A stretch of DNA of 64,000 bases from Candidatus Kaistella beijingensis (GTDB taxonomy: Bacteria; Bacteroidota; Bacteroidia; Flavobacteriales; Weeksellaceae), in the NCBI RefSeq assembly GCF_020084865.1, contig NZ_CP071953.1, positions 1,240,001-1,304,000 of the forward strand. Direction: 5' to 3'. Shown piece by piece: positions 51,191 through 64,000 of the stretch; position 1 is the stretch's first letter; each line of letters starts with the position of its first letter. A model generated the notes under the pieces. It saw only the letters and a program-made list of their open reading frames with translations. It was not told the origin of the DNA and did not search any database. The translations under genes were made by a program, and so were the position numbers.

Positions 51191-51198
51191 TAGTTTTG
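51191..51198 (+). promoter_or_regulatory. Possible -7 element of the recombinase gene
   Basis: TAGTTTTG matches TAnnTTTG and ends 21 bases before the ATG at 51220. It lies just after the 12-base repeats, so recombinase bound there could repress its own gene. Confidence 0.45.
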
Positions 51199-51219
51199 AT
51201 ATGTATTAAATCACACATT

Positions 51220-52566
51220 ATGGCTGCTCCTAAATTTTATCTTCGTTCTACTGGTGAAAATTGCACAATCCAAGTAATTTATCAATTATCGAGAACCTTA
51301 AGAATGCGCACAGCAACAGGTTTAAAAATAGATTCTGCTAAATGGCATTTTACCGAGAAGACGACAACTGATAATAATGGCAATAAAGTAAAAAAGGTTA
51401 TTGATAATGGTAAACCGCGAAATTTAGCGGAAAACAATAAATTAAAAGCTGATTTAACCAAATTAAGCTCACACATAGAGAACCAATATAATTTAGACTA
51501 TACTAAAGGAGTTCGATTTTCTAATCAGTGGCTGAAAGACACTATTAATGAGTATTTCAACAGACCAACCCAAACAGCGGAAGAAGACGACAATTTGTTT
51601 TCTGTTTATTTAAAGAACTATTCTGACCAAAGACAAATAGATTCAAGAACAAAGAAATCCACAGACCAAAAATTTGTACAACTTCAAACCAAGTTTAAAG
51701 AATATGAGAAAAAAAAGACATCAAAATATCTCATATCTGAAATTGATAAAAAGTTTTTATTAGATTTTAGAAGGTTTTTGATTGATGATTTTAAAATGAT
51801 GGAATCTTCCGCAAACAGAACCTTAAAGAATGTCAAAACAGTATTATTAGATGCAAGAGATAACGGAAAGATTATAAACCACCAAATTAACAGCTTTAGC
51901 ATCGAGAACATTCCAGCCGTCAAAATATTTTTATCATTTGCAGAAATTGAAAAAATCAAAAACACACACATTATTGGAGCTGACCTACAAAACGCTAAAG
52001 ACTGGCTAATAATAGGATGCTATACAGGGCAAAGAGTTTCCGATCTTCTGCGAATGACAAAAGAAATGATTTTCACCAAAACTGATTCTGAGGGGCAACA
52101 GTACAGGTTCATCGAATTAACGCAGGAAAAAACAGGCGCAGAGGTTACGATACCAATACATAACGAAGTTGAGGAAATATTACAAAAGTATGATGGAAAC
52201 TTCCCGCCAACTTTTGGCAAAAAAGGAGACTCCAAATTTGTTCTGTTTAACAGGCACATTAAAAAAGTCTGCGAATTGGCAGGAATTGATAACAAAGTAA
52301 AGGGCAAAGTATTTAATGATGATACAAAAAGAAATGAAATTACCGAAACCGAGAAATTCAAGTTGGTATCGAGCCATATTTGCCGCCGCAGCTTTTGTAC
52401 GAATTTCTATGGCGATAAAAGATTTACAACGCCACAGTTAATGGCTATTTCCTCACATGCTACTGAAACAGTCTTTTTGTCCTACATTGGCAAGAATTCA
52501 TCAGACCATGCAATGCAGACCGCTAAAACATTTAAAGAAATTGAAGACAAAAAAATTGCTAACTAA
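51220..52566 (+). CDS. Tyrosine recombinase (integrase)
   Basis: About 448 residues from ATG 51220 (MAAPKFYLRST); the upstream TTG at 51196 lies inside the promoter. An N-terminal arm-binding domain is followed by a SAM-like core-binding domain (about 110-210) and the catalytic domain: Arg in CYTGQRVSDLL (about 276), Lys in LTQEKTGAEVTI, HxxR in SSHICRRSFCTNF, the second His in SSHATETVF and Tyr in LSYIGK. All are present, so it should be active. This is the Bacteroidota conjugative/phage integrase type. It would excise and insert the element at the 13-base repeats. Confidence 0.93.
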   Translation: MAAPKFYLRSTGENCTIQVIYQLSRTLRMRTATGLKIDSAKWHFTEKTTTDNNGNKVKKVIDNGKPRNLAENNKLKADLTKLSSHIENQYNLDYTKGVRFSNQWLKDTINEYFNRPTQTAEEDDNLFSVYLKNYSDQRQIDSRTKKSTDQKFVQLQTKFKEYEKKKTSKYLISEIDKKFLLDFRRFLIDDFKMMESSANRTLKNVKTVLLDARDNGKIINHQINSFSIENIPAVKIFLSFAEIEKIKNTHIIGADLQNAKDWLIIGCYTGQRVSDLLRMTKEMIFTKTDSEGQQYRFIELTQEKTGAEVTIPIHNEVEEILQKYDGNFPPTFGKKGDSKFVLFNRHIKKVCELAGIDNKVKGKVFNDDTKRNEITETEKFKLVSSHICRRSFCTNFYGDKRFTTPQLMAISSHATETVFLSYIGKNSSDHAMQTAKTFKEIEDKKIAN

Positions 52567-58161: not shown

Positions 58162-59079
58162 TCATTTCATTCTAATTTCACATGATGATGATGCAGGAAT
58201 CCACTCCCTGTACTTATTCATGATTATTCCTAAATTCTGCGTATAATAGAAATCTGGTAAAAAAACTTTGACATGTGATTCCAGAAAGAATCCTTTTCTA
58301 AAATCACATTCCAGCCAAAATCCTTTTTGAGCTCTGACAATTTCATTATTTACTCTCTCGAGCCAATCACTAATATTTCGTTTATGTACAATTGGAAAAG
58401 AATAGAATTCATGGCAAAACTTTTTTGACAGTTCTTCAACCTCATCAGAAGTCTTGTACTTTCGAAATAAAGTAAAATAATTGATAAATTCCGCACATTC
58501 TGAATAAGAATAACCACAAGGCAAAACTTTTTCAATATAAAAATCTTCATGGGCTAAAAACCAAGACCTTATGGAACTCATCGACAATGCGCCTTCTTCC
58601 TCGATATGGTTTTGTAGTATATTAACAGCATCTTGACAAGTCGTGGTAATTTCATAAAAATCTTTGTCAGCTTTAAAGCACTTTTCCTCATCTTTATAAA
58701 AAGATATTCCAATCATTGTTTTACTAATTTCAATTTCTGAAGTTTCCAAGGATTTACACTGTCTAATGTCTATAATTTCATCTTCATGATAGGTGAAAAT
58801 CAACTTGATATAACAAATGCCATCATTGTTTACAAATGCAATACCTTCACGTCTTTCATCTTCAAGATCACAGAATGCTTTGTAGGATTTATATGTAGTG
58901 TCGAATTCCGGTATTCTTTTAATGAATCGAACAAAACGAGCATATACTGCAACAAACGTTTTCTTTGAGACATTGCTAAAAGTTTTGTCATCATCCAATA
59001 GAACATCCAATAAATTTACATCTAGATTTTCAAAAGCCGAGATTATCAGTTGTTTCTTGTCAAGCATAAATCGAGTCAT
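58162..59079 (-). CDS. Unrecognised protein at the end of the methyltransferase-kinase locus
   Basis: A 305-residue soluble protein (ATG at 59077-59079; ATG at 59065-59067 is possible). No known domain is visible. The N-terminal half has an alpha/beta pattern (LIISAFENLDVNLLDVLLDD, EGIAFVNNDGICYIKLIFTY); the C-terminal half is helical with aromatic residues (IRSWFLAHEDFYIEKVLPCG, FWLECDFRKGFFLESHVKVF). There is no signal peptide or membrane segment. It follows the helicase gene after a strong terminator, so it may be transcribed separately. A role in the locus, for instance as effector, is inference from position. Confidence 0.7.
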   Translation of the reverse strand: MTRFMLDKKQLIISAFENLDVNLLDVLLDDDKTFSNVSKKTFVAVYARFVRFIKRIPEFDTTYKSYKAFCDLEDERREGIAFVNNDGICYIKLIFTYHEDEIIDIRQCKSLETSEIEISKTMIGISFYKDEEKCFKADKDFYEITTTCQDAVNILQNHIEEEGALSMSSIRSWFLAHEDFYIEKVLPCGYSYSECAEFINYFTLFRKYKTSDEVEELSKKFCHEFYSFPIVHKRNISDWLERVNNEIVRAQKGFWLECDFRKGFFLESHVKVFLPDFYYTQNLGIIMNKYREWIPASSSCEIRMK

Positions 59080-59114: not shown

Positions 59115-59148
59115 AAAAAAAAAACCGTCCATAACAAATAGACGGTCT
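59115..59148 (-). terminator. Intrinsic terminator after the helicase gene
   Basis: On the minus strand, ACCGTC, loop TATTTGTTATG, GACGGT, then at least nine T. It lies directly after the helicase stop and before the 58162-59079 gene. Confidence 0.92.
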
Positions 59149-59153
59149 TAGAA

Positions 59154-60896
59154 TTAGTCTGCATTATACATGGACGTATTTACAATTTCACTTTCTCTTT
59201 CACGAAATACCTTCTCACCGGAAACAAAAACTTTAATCCCACAGAAACCCAATTTATTTCGGTCATCTTCAACTGGAAAATTTGAAATCAACAAACCATA
59301 ATTATAATCATTCTTTTTGAAGAATACACTGCCGAAATCGGCACTTAAATCTGCGTTCCAGTTTTTATACACTCTATTGCTTTTCATATTATAACTTGAT
59401 GCAATACGAACTGTAACATCTTTCGCATTCAATCTCGTTCCTTTTGTAGAACCATTGTAGGCATTTGGATCAAAAAGCCCATCTAGTCTATCAAAGACTT
59501 CATCTGAAAGAAATGATAACTTATTTCTTCCTTCTTCTGTCGATAGCTCTTCTACGGAAACTGTAAAAATATCGTCTATAGAAGTAAAGATTCCTTCAAC
59601 TTGAGTGATCGCAAATTTGGTTTGTGTTGTCAGTCCTCGAATTGAATTATCAATCAATTCTTCTTTCCATTCCGGATCGCTGAAAATCTCCCAATCTTGC
59701 TCAAATTTTGCATAATTACTAAGCAAAGGAATACTTGCCATTATTCTAAATGTTCGGTTATTATGGTAACCGCAACATCTTCCTGCAATTCCTTGAGCAC
59801 CATTTGCAAGTTGTTTGTCTCTCGGCTCAATTCCAAACCTTATTTTTTCCTTTAATTTGCCTAAATCCTTTCCGGCGGTTAAAGCTTGAACAATTATTAG
59901 AATCACCCTTCTTCCCATCCTCATAATTAAATTTGCTACTTCAGAAAGACCTTCATTTATTGAAAAATCACACGCAGAATCAGATCCAATAACTAAAACA
60001 TCAACATTGTGTTTCAGTTTTGTTCGCAACAAGTTTCTTAATTCCAATGCTCGCAACGTAGTTGATTCTCTGATAATTCCCAATCCATCATCAAAACTCA
60101 ATAAATGCTGAACATATTCAATAACATTTGGATGAACAACATATTCTCCATTGTTATCTTGCAGTGGTGAGAAATCTAATGGCAAATCATCAATCATATT
60201 TTCCCTCAACATCTCTGTAATTCCGAAATAGGAAGGTGGTCTTACTCCTTCTACAACATCAATGTCTGCACTTTTGGTAAAATGAGCATCTAAAATATCA
60301 TAAGGTGTTGCACTTACAGCAACCAGACCAATTTCCGGCAGCTTGCTCCTTAAATTATCGAAAAATGCAAATTGGAAAGAAGATTCTTCGCCACATCCGT
60401 ACTGATCCTCATCTCTAACTATAAGTTGAACTTTAAGATCGCGTACAGCTTTGAACGGATTCGGATAATTAAAGAACTCATTCATCTTAATCACCTTAAT
60501 TCGCGAATATTTCATTTGTCCTTCGGAAGCGTCATAAAAATCTGCTTCCAAATTTCGGTTGTTCTGATTATACAAATCAGTATCTCGCATGCTTGTTACA
60601 AACAGTACATTTTCATGACCGCTCAACAAACCGATTGCAGGTAATACATAATTGCATAGAAAATAAATGGTCTTTGATTTACCACTTTGCATTGATGCAA
60701 CAAATGCTATATTTTGATTTCCTTCCTTTATGGAAAGTCCCAATCTTAAAGCATTTATAATCTGATTCTCAAAAATACCTGTTCTTTGAGAATTTGCAAG
60801 CGTATCCACAATATTAGTGTGGAGTGATGCAGGAGCATCCAACTCATCAAGTAAATTTCTAATTTCCTGATTCCAATAGTTCTGATAATCTGTCAT
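59154..60896 (-). CDS. Superfamily 2 helicase-like ATPase
   Basis: A 580-residue ATPase. Walker A is ASMQSGKSK (residues 68-76), Walker B/motif II is LIVRDEDQYG (DEDQ at 162-165), motif III is VSATPYD (194-200), motif V is TAGKDLG (340-346) and motif VI is QGIAGRCCGYH (368-378). The order and spacing fit a DNA translocase or helicase. The motif VI region and overall style resemble Z1-type helicases found with GHKL ATPases and methylases in restriction-like clusters. No nuclease motif is visible. It starts 69 bases after the receiver gene on the same strand. Confidence 0.85.
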   Translation of the reverse strand: MTDYQNYWNQEIRNLLDELDAPASLHTNIVDTLANSQRTGIFENQIINALRLGLSIKEGNQNIAFVASMQSGKSKTIYFLCNYVLPAIGLLSGHENVLFVTSMRDTDLYNQNNRNLEADFYDASEGQMKYSRIKVIKMNEFFNYPNPFKAVRDLKVQLIVRDEDQYGCGEESSFQFAFFDNLRSKLPEIGLVAVSATPYDILDAHFTKSADIDVVEGVRPPSYFGITEMLRENMIDDLPLDFSPLQDNNGEYVVHPNVIEYVQHLLSFDDGLGIIRESTTLRALELRNLLRTKLKHNVDVLVIGSDSACDFSINEGLSEVANLIMRMGRRVILIIVQALTAGKDLGKLKEKIRFGIEPRDKQLANGAQGIAGRCCGYHNNRTFRIMASIPLLSNYAKFEQDWEIFSDPEWKEELIDNSIRGLTTQTKFAITQVEGIFTSIDDIFTVSVEELSTEEGRNKLSFLSDEVFDRLDGLFDPNAYNGSTKGTRLNAKDVTVRIASSYNMKSNRVYKNWNADLSADFGSVFFKKNDYNYGLLISNFPVEDDRNKLGFCGIKVFVSGEKVFRERESEIVNTSMYNAD

Positions 60897-60965
60897 AATG
60901 CACCGTTTTTAAATTAACAGTACAAAGATGAGCACGACATGTGCAATAGATTTGCACAGATGGAT

Positions 60966-62090
60966 TTAATCTACAAAAATGTACTTAATATGAAGCGGAT
61001 TATCTTCTTTAGGTTCAATTTTTAATTTTTGACCTACATAAAGAGAAAATTGCTCACCAAGTTTTGGAGGAACAGAAAACCGAAGATTATTGTCAGAAAT
61101 AAAAGTAGCATAACCATTCGCGGAAACTTCTGTAATCTCTCCCGAAAGAATATTTTTCTTTAGCCACGCTATTTCCTTATTTTCAGTAGTTTTTTTCCAA
61201 TCATTCAAATACAGATTAAAATAATTGAGAATTTCTAGTAAGGAATGCACGGTGGAAGCATAAAGATGTTTTGCTTGATTTTTTGAGCAATATTCTTGAA
61301 CCCGAAAATTAAGTTTTTCACCGCTATGAGATCCGTCTTGAGTTAAATTTAGGGTGCGGTAAATTAATTCTCCAATGACAGGATGTATGATTTCTTTTGA
61401 AAATTCAAATTCATTATGTCTGCAATTCAAGAATAAACTGCAACCGTTCAACGATTTAATGTCTGGAGAAATTATTCTTAAAAGCTTTAATTCATCAAAC
61501 AATTTCTCGAAAATCATTCGTATTGAATTGTAATCGTCGAACTGAATGGTACTTTCAGAAAAAAGCTTTTTTAGAATCTGCAATAAATCATATTTGGTTT
61601 CAGACTCTAAATGCGATTCAAAAATTTTGAAAGAATCTTGATATTGATGAATGAGTTGGGTTTCGTATTGTTGATCGGCTTCGCTTTTCAATCTTGCGTA
61701 AAGGTTCCGAATTTGATTATTGTCTAATTTATCGTAAACACAATCTTCTTTTCCTTCAGATTGTATGAAGTCGTTATCATTTTTTATTTTTTCTTTACCG
61801 GTTAGAATGAACCATGGAATATATTTTTTAGGACGAATTTCTTTCAAAGAATTTACCACATTCATCAATGCTGTTTGTCTTGTTGCAACTCCTTCCTCTT
61901 CGGATGTATTATAAAATAATCCATCGAGAATTGCTCCATCATACCAAAGAAAATTTTCCTTCAAATCGGCAATTGCAGTTTCTGCATTATCAAAAGGAAT
62001 CAGTTCAATTCCAGCATCAATTGCCATTTGTCGGATACTGAAAAGCGACTGATATTCATCATCTACCCAAAATACTTTATATTTCTTCAT
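60966..62090 (-). CDS. Receiver-domain protein with helical middle and OB-like C-terminus
   Basis: About 374 residues from ATG 62088-62090; a TTG six bases earlier is possible. The receiver domain (about 1-130) keeps every phosphotransfer residue: Asp10/Asp11 in FWVDDE, phosphoacceptor Asp56 in GAILDG, Thr97 in FILTGKE and Lys121 in VYDKLDN. A helical region follows (about 135-310) with no known DNA-binding fold. The last 60 residues (EITEVSANGYATFISDNN, LGEQFSLYVGQKLKIE) look like an S1/cold-shock OB fold, suggesting nucleic-acid binding. It overlaps the kinase-like gene by 14 bases, the usual arrangement of a cognate pair. Confidence 0.85.
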   Translation of the reverse strand: MKKYKVFWVDDEYQSLFSIRQMAIDAGIELIPFDNAETAIADLKENFLWYDGAILDGLFYNTSEEEGVATRQTALMNVVNSLKEIRPKKYIPWFILTGKEKIKNDNDFIQSEGKEDCVYDKLDNNQIRNLYARLKSEADQQYETQLIHQYQDSFKIFESHLESETKYDLLQILKKLFSESTIQFDDYNSIRMIFEKLFDELKLLRIISPDIKSLNGCSLFLNCRHNEFEFSKEIIHPVIGELIYRTLNLTQDGSHSGEKLNFRVQEYCSKNQAKHLYASTVHSLLEILNYFNLYLNDWKKTTENKEIAWLKKNILSGEITEVSANGYATFISDNNLRFSVPPKLGEQFSLYVGQKLKIEPKEDNPLHIKYIFVD

Positions 62091-64000
62091 TGTCAATTTG
62101 TAAATCGTCTAAATTTACAAATTCTTGCTGATAAGGAAGTGATACTTCAAAAGTTGTCGCAAGATCAGTTTCGCCTATACCTTCTGGACCAGTTTCGTCA
62201 ACAATATACCAATCACCACCAAAATATTTAATAATTTGATCAACGATGTAACCTCCCATTCCACTTCCTCCATTTTTTCCCTTTTTAATTCCCTTGGATC
62301 TAAAATCATCAAATGTGAAATTTTCCGGCATTGGATTTCCTGTATTTGAAATAAAGATTGTAAAGGTTTCAAATTCCTCAAGGATTGAAGTCGAGATTTC
62401 AATTCTTCTTACCTCCTCCTTGTTCCAATTAAACCCGTGCTTTTTAATGTTCGAGATTAGATTATCAAGTAGAAAACATAATAGATCTTCATTCGCAAAG
62501 GTGAAGATTTTGAAGTCATCACTCTTAATATCATTCAAATTGATATCAAATAAAATATTGGGGTTCTTCTCACTTACATTCTTAAAATAGTTTTCCAGAA
62601 ATGGCACAATTTCAATTGGTGAAACAGGATATTCACTTGGAATAAAGTCTTCTGTTTGGCTTCTGACTTCTTCAGTAATCCTTTTAGAATCCTTAATTAA
62701 GTTATCAATCAATTCTCCTAGATTTAACAATTGATTATCATTCAACTTTAAAGAAAATAATTGTGGAAATTTCGGCAACACTTTTCTTTCAAGAATCTGT
62801 TTGATATTGGACGCAAAAAATTCCAAATTAGAAACTGAACCTGCAATTTTATGTCTTAGTATTGCGTTTTTTTCAGCTTCCATGCTTTGAAAGTCTTTAT
62901 CAACTTTTTGAATCTCATCTTGAAGTTCTTTAATTGCAGAACTTAATTGTTCTTCAATTTCCTCCTTTTGTAAATCTGATGAAACCAAATTGATTTTTAC
63001 ATTCATCAAATCATTGACTCGTATATCTCTTACAGTTGAACCAAAAACCTGAGCTTCTATCTGTTTTTGAACATAATCTTTGTTCAACTCATTTATTAAA
63101 TACTTGTAAGAAATAACATCTTCATCCATAATTTTTAATAATACAATTCGTTGATGGCATAGTACAGCTTTTTTACCCGAAAAGTAGGTTGCGTTCAAAT
63201 TTCCACCGATTAATGAAACCAAAACACCTTCTTCATCCAGAACTGTGTAATACATCAAATTTTCTATTGTGGAGATGGGTTCTAGCAAATCATAATTAAT
63301 AGAGGGCAATATATTTGGATCATGTCCCAGATCTCGAACGTTTAAAATCTTAGAAATATCAGTAAAATTCTCTGGTTTCTGTCGCTTAGCAACTTCTACT
63401 AATTCGTAGAGAGGAGTTCCTTCCAACTCTTCCAAAAAATACACTTTGCCTTGAAGATTATAATCTCTATTTCTTATCTCTTCCGCATCAACGAGAACCG
63501 ATTCCCAAGGTTGAAAAAGAAAGTTGTTCGTTTCAAAGTTGTCCCAATCTATATATGATTTCCTAGTTTTAGACTTTGATAGATAATCATCAAAGTCAAT
63601 AAATTCTATTTTAGTACTTGGTTTCTCCGTATTTAGCACCAAAACATTTATTGCAATATTGGTATGACGGAATACGCCTGTCGGAAAAATAAGTACTTTT
63701 TCAACAAGATTTTCATCTACCAATTTTTTGAAAAGTTCTTTTTCTGTTTTTCGTCCCGAGGAAAGGAACGCCGGTCGAACGAAAAGAATAATCTTTCCGC
63801 CAATTTTAATAGATGACAGCGATTCTTCTATAACGAAATGCTCTAAATCGACTTTATCACCAAAACTATTTTTTACATCAATTCTGTTAAGAATAGGTAA
63901 TCTAGAAAAAATAAGATCAAATTTTTCCTCTGAAGGCCAGTTTTCAATACTACTTTCTAAAACATAATCGAAATTTAATTTATGGTGTGCCCAAAGTCGC
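62077..64000 (-). CDS. Methyltransferase-fold / specificity / GHKL-ATPase fusion (partial)
   Basis: The frame stays open to the window edge, so about 640 C-terminal residues are visible and the N-terminus is missing. First comes the end of an N6-adenine methyltransferase fold: FDLIFSRLPI, where the motif IV NPPY or NPPF is expected, at 63895-63906; then GGKIILFVRPAFLSSG and VLIFPTGVFRHTNIAINVLV. A type I S-subunit-like part follows (FGSTVRDIRVNDLMNVKI) and a coiled coil. A histidine-kinase-like module ends the protein: candidate H-box ILRHKIAGSVSNL (His codon 62851-62853), N-box LLDNLISNIKKHG, G1 ISNTGNP and G2 GGSGMGGYIV. The methyltransferase motif appears catalytically degenerate. Confidence 0.88.
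   Translation of the reverse strand, partial: RLWAHHKLNFDYVLESSIENWPSEEKFDLIFSRLPILNRIDVKNSFGDKVDLEHFVIEESLSSIKIGGKIILFVRPAFLSSGRKTEKELFKKLVDENLVEKVLIFPTGVFRHTNIAINVLVLNTEKPSTKIEFIDFDDYLSKSKTRKSYIDWDNFETNNFLFQPWESVLVDAEEIRNRDYNLQGKVYFLEELEGTPLYELVEVAKRQKPENFTDISKILNVRDLGHDPNILPSINYDLLEPISTIENLMYYTVLDEEGVLVSLIGGNLNATYFSGKKAVLCHQRIVLLKIMDEDVISYKYLINELNKDYVQKQIEAQVFGSTVRDIRVNDLMNVKINLVSSDLQKEEIEEQLSSAIKELQDEIQKVDKDFQSMEAEKNAILRHKIAGSVSNLEFFASNIKQILERKVLPKFPQLFSLKLNDNQLLNLGELIDNLIKDSKRITEEVRSQTEDFIPSEYPVSPIEIVPFLENYFKNVSEKNPNILFDINLNDIKSDDFKIFTFANEDLLCFLLDNLISNIKKHGFNWNKEEVRRIEISTSILEEFETFTIFISNTGNPMPENFTFDDFRSKGIKKGKNGGSGMGGYIVDQIIKYFGGDWYIVDETGPEGIGETDLATTFEVSLPYQQEFVNLDDLQIDNEEI

Follow-up and report, generated by a model that had tools for sequence, protein, structure and literature searches.

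The window analysed here is a stretch of 64,000 nucleotides, bases 1,240,001-1,304,000 of the 2.816-Mb single-contig genome of Candidatus Kaistella beijingensis (contig NZ_CP071953.1, coded G000 below). Near its end, a first-pass annotation made from the letters alone had described three minus-strand genes as a methyltransferase-kinase fusion, a receiver and a helicase, and all three are confirmed in the sequence. The frame of the fusion gene (62077..64000 in the window) is open from 62077 to 63999, at the window end. In the DNA retrieved past 64,000, where extended positions continue the window numbering, the ATG lies at 64551 and gives a protein of 824 residues, the first 184 of which are beyond the window. 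The best start of the receiver gene (60966..62090, 374 residues) is the ATG at 62090, within the last codons of the fusion gene, and the helicase gene (59154..60896) starts 69 nucleotides after it. The retrieved DNA also holds a complete bacteriophage exclusion (BREX) operon upstream of the fusion. On the same strand and in transcription order, brxA, brxB, brxC, pglX, pglZ and brxL are followed by a HIRAN gene, a weak ASCH match and then the fusion, so that the three genes form the 3' end of the operon. All six brx and pgl genes that define BREX type 1 were identified by PADLOC/NCBIfam, and a WYL gene stands divergently at the head of the operon.

The fusion combines an HsdM-like N6-methyltransferase fold with a degenerate motif IV, an S-type recognition region, an H-box helix and a GHKL kinase domain. 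Pfam N6_Mtase covers residues 123-372 (6.1e-17) and HATPase_c residues 687-808 (4.6e-9), and PADLOC models of type I S match at roughly residues 430-570. Together with the kinase boxes, these matches bear out the earlier description of a methyltransferase/specificity body ending in an H-box and a GHKL ATPase; only the length had to be revised, as the full protein exceeds the window part. The target-recognition-like region (residues 376-528; 62968..63426, minus strand) is delimited by PADLOC Specificity_I matches and by VIA alignments to CamA and M.TaqI, which end at residues 523-547. As for the kinase, a DHp-like helix is predicted by modelling at residues 525-591 and carries the candidate phospho-acceptor His567 (codon at 62851..62853, minus strand), and the catalytic HATPase_c/GHKL domain spans residues 641-810 (62122..62631, minus strand). 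His567, Asn701 of the N box, Asn736/Gly738 of G1 and Gly764/Gly766 of G2 are invariant in 38/38 fusions, and His705 is conserved in at least 90% of them; the protein thus has both the conserved His in a DHp-like helix and the N, G1 and G2 boxes of a histidine kinase. PADLOC covers it in parts only (mad2, 8.4e-13; mad5, 5e-10; type I MTase; type I S), and no NCBIfam model reached the cut-off for the fusion or the receiver. Relatives of the two proteins are publicly named 'N-6 DNA methylase', 'response regulator' or 'hypothetical protein'; the named ones come from Chryseobacterium koreense (83%), Flavobacterium, Algoriphagus and Myroides.

The receiver protein, also encoded on the minus strand, comprises a receiver domain (residues ~1-140), a helical output domain (~141-303) and a small beta-rich end domain (~305-374). 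It has the make-up of a response regulator, namely the receiver fold, the acidic pair Asp10 and Asp11, the candidate phospho-acceptor Asp56 (codon at 61923..61925), Thr97 and Lys121; the overlap with the fusion gene and the phosphotransfer residues noted at first pass were both recovered. Asp11, Asp56 and Lys121 are invariant in 36/36 receivers. Neither a Pfam family nor a PADLOC match was obtained for this protein, and its output appears to be a new helical domain instead of a DNA-binding domain of the usual sort. In 21/34 receivers there is room for a further end domain after the helical one.

The fusion and the receiver form a conserved pair. Fusion-type matches, defined as reaching beyond model position 500 with the pieces of one genome pooled, were found in 12/395 genomes of a class sample, 12/296 of a phylum sample and 14/296 of a family sample; the three samples overlap, this genome being in all of them. 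After two copies, broken or cut, had been dropped and G268 (L135), two loci on genome contigs and one Myroides plasmid added, there were 34 loci with full-length fusions, this one included, all from Bacteroidota as far as they are named. The receiver is the next gene after the fusion, on the same strand, in 34/34 loci (gap of -35 to +12 nucleotides), and this recurrence in 33 other loci goes far beyond chance. A reverse search of the 395 genomes with a receiver profile gave 16 matches at 1e-6, two of them weak and covering the receiver domain only in part, and 14 at 1.5e-30 or below. Twelve of these 14 adjoin fusions found by the fusion search, one (G268) adjoins a fusion that this search had missed, and the last, in G198, is discussed below. 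At a further locus (L139, G370:C3), a decayed fusion, in pieces with stops, lies beside an open receiver gene. The conservation of all three genes had been proposed as a check. It holds for the fusion and receiver; the helicase was found only in G000, G008 and G783 among the loci examined, and the conserved core is therefore the pair.

The methylase part of the fusion shows a different pattern of conservation from the kinase. Motif IV of this fusion reads SRLP instead of the (N/D/S)PP(Y/F/W) of active N6-adenine methyltransferases such as HsdM. The canonical motif is present in 11/38 fusions when the whole aligned methylase region is searched, and in 23/23 HsdM proteins of the same loci (at least 400 residues, whole protein searched). 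The tree of fusions, a quick one with several long branches and uncertain support at some forks, requires at least eight state changes of motif IV, and most fusions have changes in the motif I region as well (NPFAS/NPFAG types). With canonical motif IV absent in 27/38 fusions, the kinase residues have thus been retained while the methylase motif was repeatedly lost. The 11 fusions with a canonical motif would fit an enzyme that still methylates adenine and whose kinase part does no more than adjust this activity; however, the losses in the other 27, this fusion among them, the altered motif I and the invariance of key kinase residues make this the least probable of the explanations considered here, and a very remote one.

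The setting of the pair was then compared across loci, a type I hsd-like gene being one that scores >40 bits with phmmer against references in the DNA fetched. Clustering with other defence genes, which the annotation had proposed to look for, took the form of type I hsd-like genes in 25/34 loci and of BREX in two (this one, and G712 with brxA, brxB, brxC, pglX, pglZ and brxL), and neither partner was found in 7/34. The exchange of partners is best seen by comparing G000 with G783. Window positions 57153-65134 are common to both at 97.3% identity, and extended positions 83740-92472 at 82.7%. No counterpart of the BREX genes between these blocks was found in the retrieved part of G783, which carries hsdR, hsdM and hsdS instead. 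The island backbone is thus the same, with BREX replaced by type I restriction-modification (R-M), and nearly the same cassette has functioned with, or at any rate moved alongside, two unrelated restriction machines on a single kind of element. A cassette of the same kind occurs on the mobilizable Myroides odoratimimus plasmid pFM-G13 (L134) as an operon WYL-fusion-receiver-hsdM-hsdS-(two genes)-hsdR, and the pair is present in three records.

Such free exchange, even at 97% identity, could also be expected if the pair were a two-component module that defends the cell by itself, is functionally unconnected with R-M and BREX and just rides with them on the same mobile elements. The seven loci at which the retrieved DNA holds neither type I nor BREX genes, and the phage-type integrase genes that flank the island on both sides (window 51196-52566 and L002:13720-15021), are in keeping with this idea. 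Nevertheless, hsdM directly follows the receiver in 19/34 loci with gaps of -8 to +82 nucleotides, a WYL gene is found in 27/34 loci (directly upstream on the same strand in 15/34), and the sensor itself resembles a methylase-specificity (M.S) protein. We therefore regard a mere passenger as rather improbable.

If the sensor read the partner's own site, its recognition region should change with HsdS. Both were compared in five locus pairs. The fusion recognition region is 96% identical between L110 and L111, 100% between L129 and L130 and 87% between L020 and L126, with HsdS identities of 37%, 30% and 35%, respectively. The pairs L020/L027 (56% and 34%) and L118/L128 (44% and 37%) have diverged in both proteins and are little informative. 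G000 and G783, the first of which has BREX as the partner, likewise have identical recognition regions. A constant recognition region next to a diverged HsdS in close pairs argues that the sensor does not track the site of its partner. These observations bear directly on the possibility that the sensor detects the partner's own site where it lacks methylation and holds back cutting until the cell's DNA has been methylated. Such control of establishment would suit the M.S architecture, the loss of the catalytic motif and the mobile setting, but it is hard to reconcile with recognition regions 96-100% identical in two pairs whose HsdS proteins share only 30-37%, or with the G000/G783 comparison, and we consider it highly unlikely. 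Since the sensor appears independent of partner specificity, its ligand is probably something found across many hosts. An invariable feature of DNA, an anti-restriction protein that mimics DNA and S-adenosylmethionine depletion are the candidates, the first two ranking ahead of the third.

What can be read from the sequences themselves (the parts, their strict pairing, the invariant residues, the loss of the methylase motif, the position in the operon, the exchange of partners and the decoupling from specificity) leads us to favour, with some reserve, a two-component switch dedicated to defence operons that target DNA, a portable cassette in which a mostly inactive methyltransferase would serve as the sensor. 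The M.S-type body would have lost methyl transfer in most cases and kept binding. In the structural model the S-like helix continues into the H-box helix, and a binding event could thereby set the autophosphorylation of His567. The invariant residues and the strict pairing suggest that the phosphoryl group would then pass to Asp56 of the adjacent receiver. The response would most likely be post-transcriptional, restraining, licensing or backing up the downstream nuclease or helicase machine, given that the output domain is new and that the end domain matches RNA-binding models in a few receivers. The first-pass annotation had proposed that recognition of foreign DNA triggers phosphotransfer to a receiver controlling the helicase or an effector. 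This interpretation is partly supported: its architecture, pairing, phosphotransfer residues and defence setting have stood up, and the helicase has dropped out of the core. More tentatively, the pseudo-methyltransferase might read a fixed cue shared by many phages or infection states and different from the partner's own site, and one receiver might switch machines as unlike as type I R-M, BREX and perhaps McrBC and helicases, or a last-resort attack on RNA. On this bolder reading the pair would be a general plug-in controller of restriction, passed between systems as a cassette.

The nature of the output also bears on an overlapping explanation, in which the methylase-like kinase would guard restriction, watching for its inhibition (for example by DNA-mimic proteins) or absence, and the output domain of the receiver would act as a toxin on RNA in abortive infection. 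PrrC beside EcoprrI offers a comparison. An invariant Arg and His in the helical output domain (28/28), the match of an S1/CSD-TOTE model to a few receivers and the independence of the sensor from partner specificity would agree with it, as would the receiver of L121 (2438-3385), which has a Schlafen AlbA_2 domain instead (6.4e-15) and lies between the methylase-kinase fusion and AAA/McrC genes. HEPN RNases combine an RX4-6H motif with the HEPN fold. However, the usual output domain has no recognised nuclease, and its Arg and His, in a domain searched within whole receivers only, are far apart in sequence and in separate parts of the domain, unlike the RX4-6H spacing. A guard of this kind is accordingly a doubtful alternative, if a less doubtful one than a mere passenger.

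Several observations weigh against the dedicated switch that we favour. No fusion accompanies the strong receiver of G198 within the 3 kb read. The type I-like genes in some of the 25 loci are incomplete or on the other strand (hsdR only in L113, opposite in L114), and the seven loci with neither type I nor BREX genes (L023, L028, L117, L121, L123, L127 and L133) include two, L121 and L127, that are cut by contig ends. The 11 fusions that retain motif IV might still methylate. The H-box region is modelled with low confidence (residues 563-567, <50), no recognised relative of the output domain was found in Pfam and PDB sequence searches of the receivers, and the S1/CSD(-TOTE) model was matched by only 3/36 receivers, with E up to 0.1. 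As for the setting of the G198 receiver, L136 (G198:C237, 421-2998) encodes a receiver whose helical output domain is related, directly followed by Cas6 (Pfam, 6e-6) and reverse transcriptase (3e-30) genes; this may be an occurrence of the output module in a CRISPR context. Near the fusions of L023, L028, L121 and L123 there are helicase or McrBC genes.

The 580-residue helicase-like ATPase, an accessory of the near clade, shows the motifs QSGKS, DEDQ, SATP and GRCC in the order found in superfamily 2 (SF2) helicases, as first described; no match in Pfam, PADLOC, PHROGs, NCBIfam or PDB reached the cut-off. In the gap between it and the next gene, a terminator-like hairpin with a T run (59121..59149, minus strand) might mark the operon end, a feature that is weak alone, with 6 such sites against 5.2 expected in the region scanned. 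The next gene (58162..59079, minus strand; 305 residues, no known family), the fourth protein of the annotation, is present and is set apart from the helicase by this hairpin. It accompanies the cassette in both G000 and G783, and a relative lies near the divergent fusion of L133 (16051-16992). Between BrxL and the fusion lie the HIRAN-domain gene (L001:10177-10593), which G008 and G783 also have close to the cassette, and the weak ASCH-domain gene (L001:9608-9934). The latter is also found in G783 and matches phrog_625, an unknown phage family. BrxL itself (L001:10630-12660) carries a phospholipase D-like C-terminal domain (PF16565).

The pair bears on how type I R-M and BREX are restrained and on how cells respond when restriction is beaten, and its recurrence in such operons would offer a direct handle through two point mutations, H567A and D56A. 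If the favoured model is correct, a DNA methyltransferase has been turned into a signalling receptor and passed as a unit between unrelated defence systems.

No description of a methylase-kinase fusion with a receiver switch was found in the literature searched. Among the closest known systems is Detocs (DtcA/DtcB/DtcC), a phage defence phosphorelay from sensor kinase to receiver, with a TPR-type sensor and a purine nucleoside phosphorylase effector borne by the receiver. A similar relay is predicted here, but with a methylase/S-body sensor, a new output domain and usually a restriction-type operon as partner; no TPR was present among 11 families found in 38 fusions, nor purine nucleoside phosphorylase among 25 families listed for 36 receivers. 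Residues 1-540 of the fusion share their fold with adenine methylases that have a recognition domain, type I HsdM/HsdS included (PDB 7vru, 3lkd, 7eew, CamA, M.TaqI), and differ in the loss of motif IV in most fusions, the kinase in place of the S C-terminus and the receiver partner. The methylation-associated defence system (MADS), a multi-gene mad operon, likewise combines a methylase with S-like parts for defence, and the fusion is covered in part by two of its models, mad2 and mad5. The kinase and receiver are extra here, and no other mad model was among the matches listed for 13 scanned island proteins. The WYL regulators BrxR/CapW are transcription repressors; a WYL gene is likewise common at our loci, and the two-component pair would be a further layer. 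BrxR/CapW are named in PMC13373217 and PMC12255303. CapK/CapS (EMBO J 2026, PMC13373217) involves a GHKL kinase with HTH and STAS domains, encoded at immune operons that it controls, its target being a conserved serine in a STAS-wHTH repressor; the available part of that account describes no receiver or methylase, both of which are present here. A Schlafen RNase that has a minimal histidine kinase at its C-terminus and is encoded near BREX and related systems (NAR 2026, PMC12839542) shares the kinase module near BREX, but as described in the available text it is a single RNase protein without a methylase sensor or receiver. The same 2026 BREX survey mentions, in the text available, Schlafen-kinase fusions and no methylase-kinase fusion, and the words 'receiver' and 'GHKL' are absent from its main text. 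HATPase, REC and TPR are among the labels of one DefensePredictor figure, and the text available shows no methylase-kinase fusion. PpoS/PpoR exerts two-component control of CRISPR-Cas as a global BarA/UvrY-type regulator (PMC8523701). As far as the available text describes it, PpoS/PpoR is neither a dedicated module nor equipped with a methylase-like sensor. Two-component control of defence is thus already known from PpoS/PpoR and Detocs, and it is the variant with a methylase-like sensor that appears to be new.
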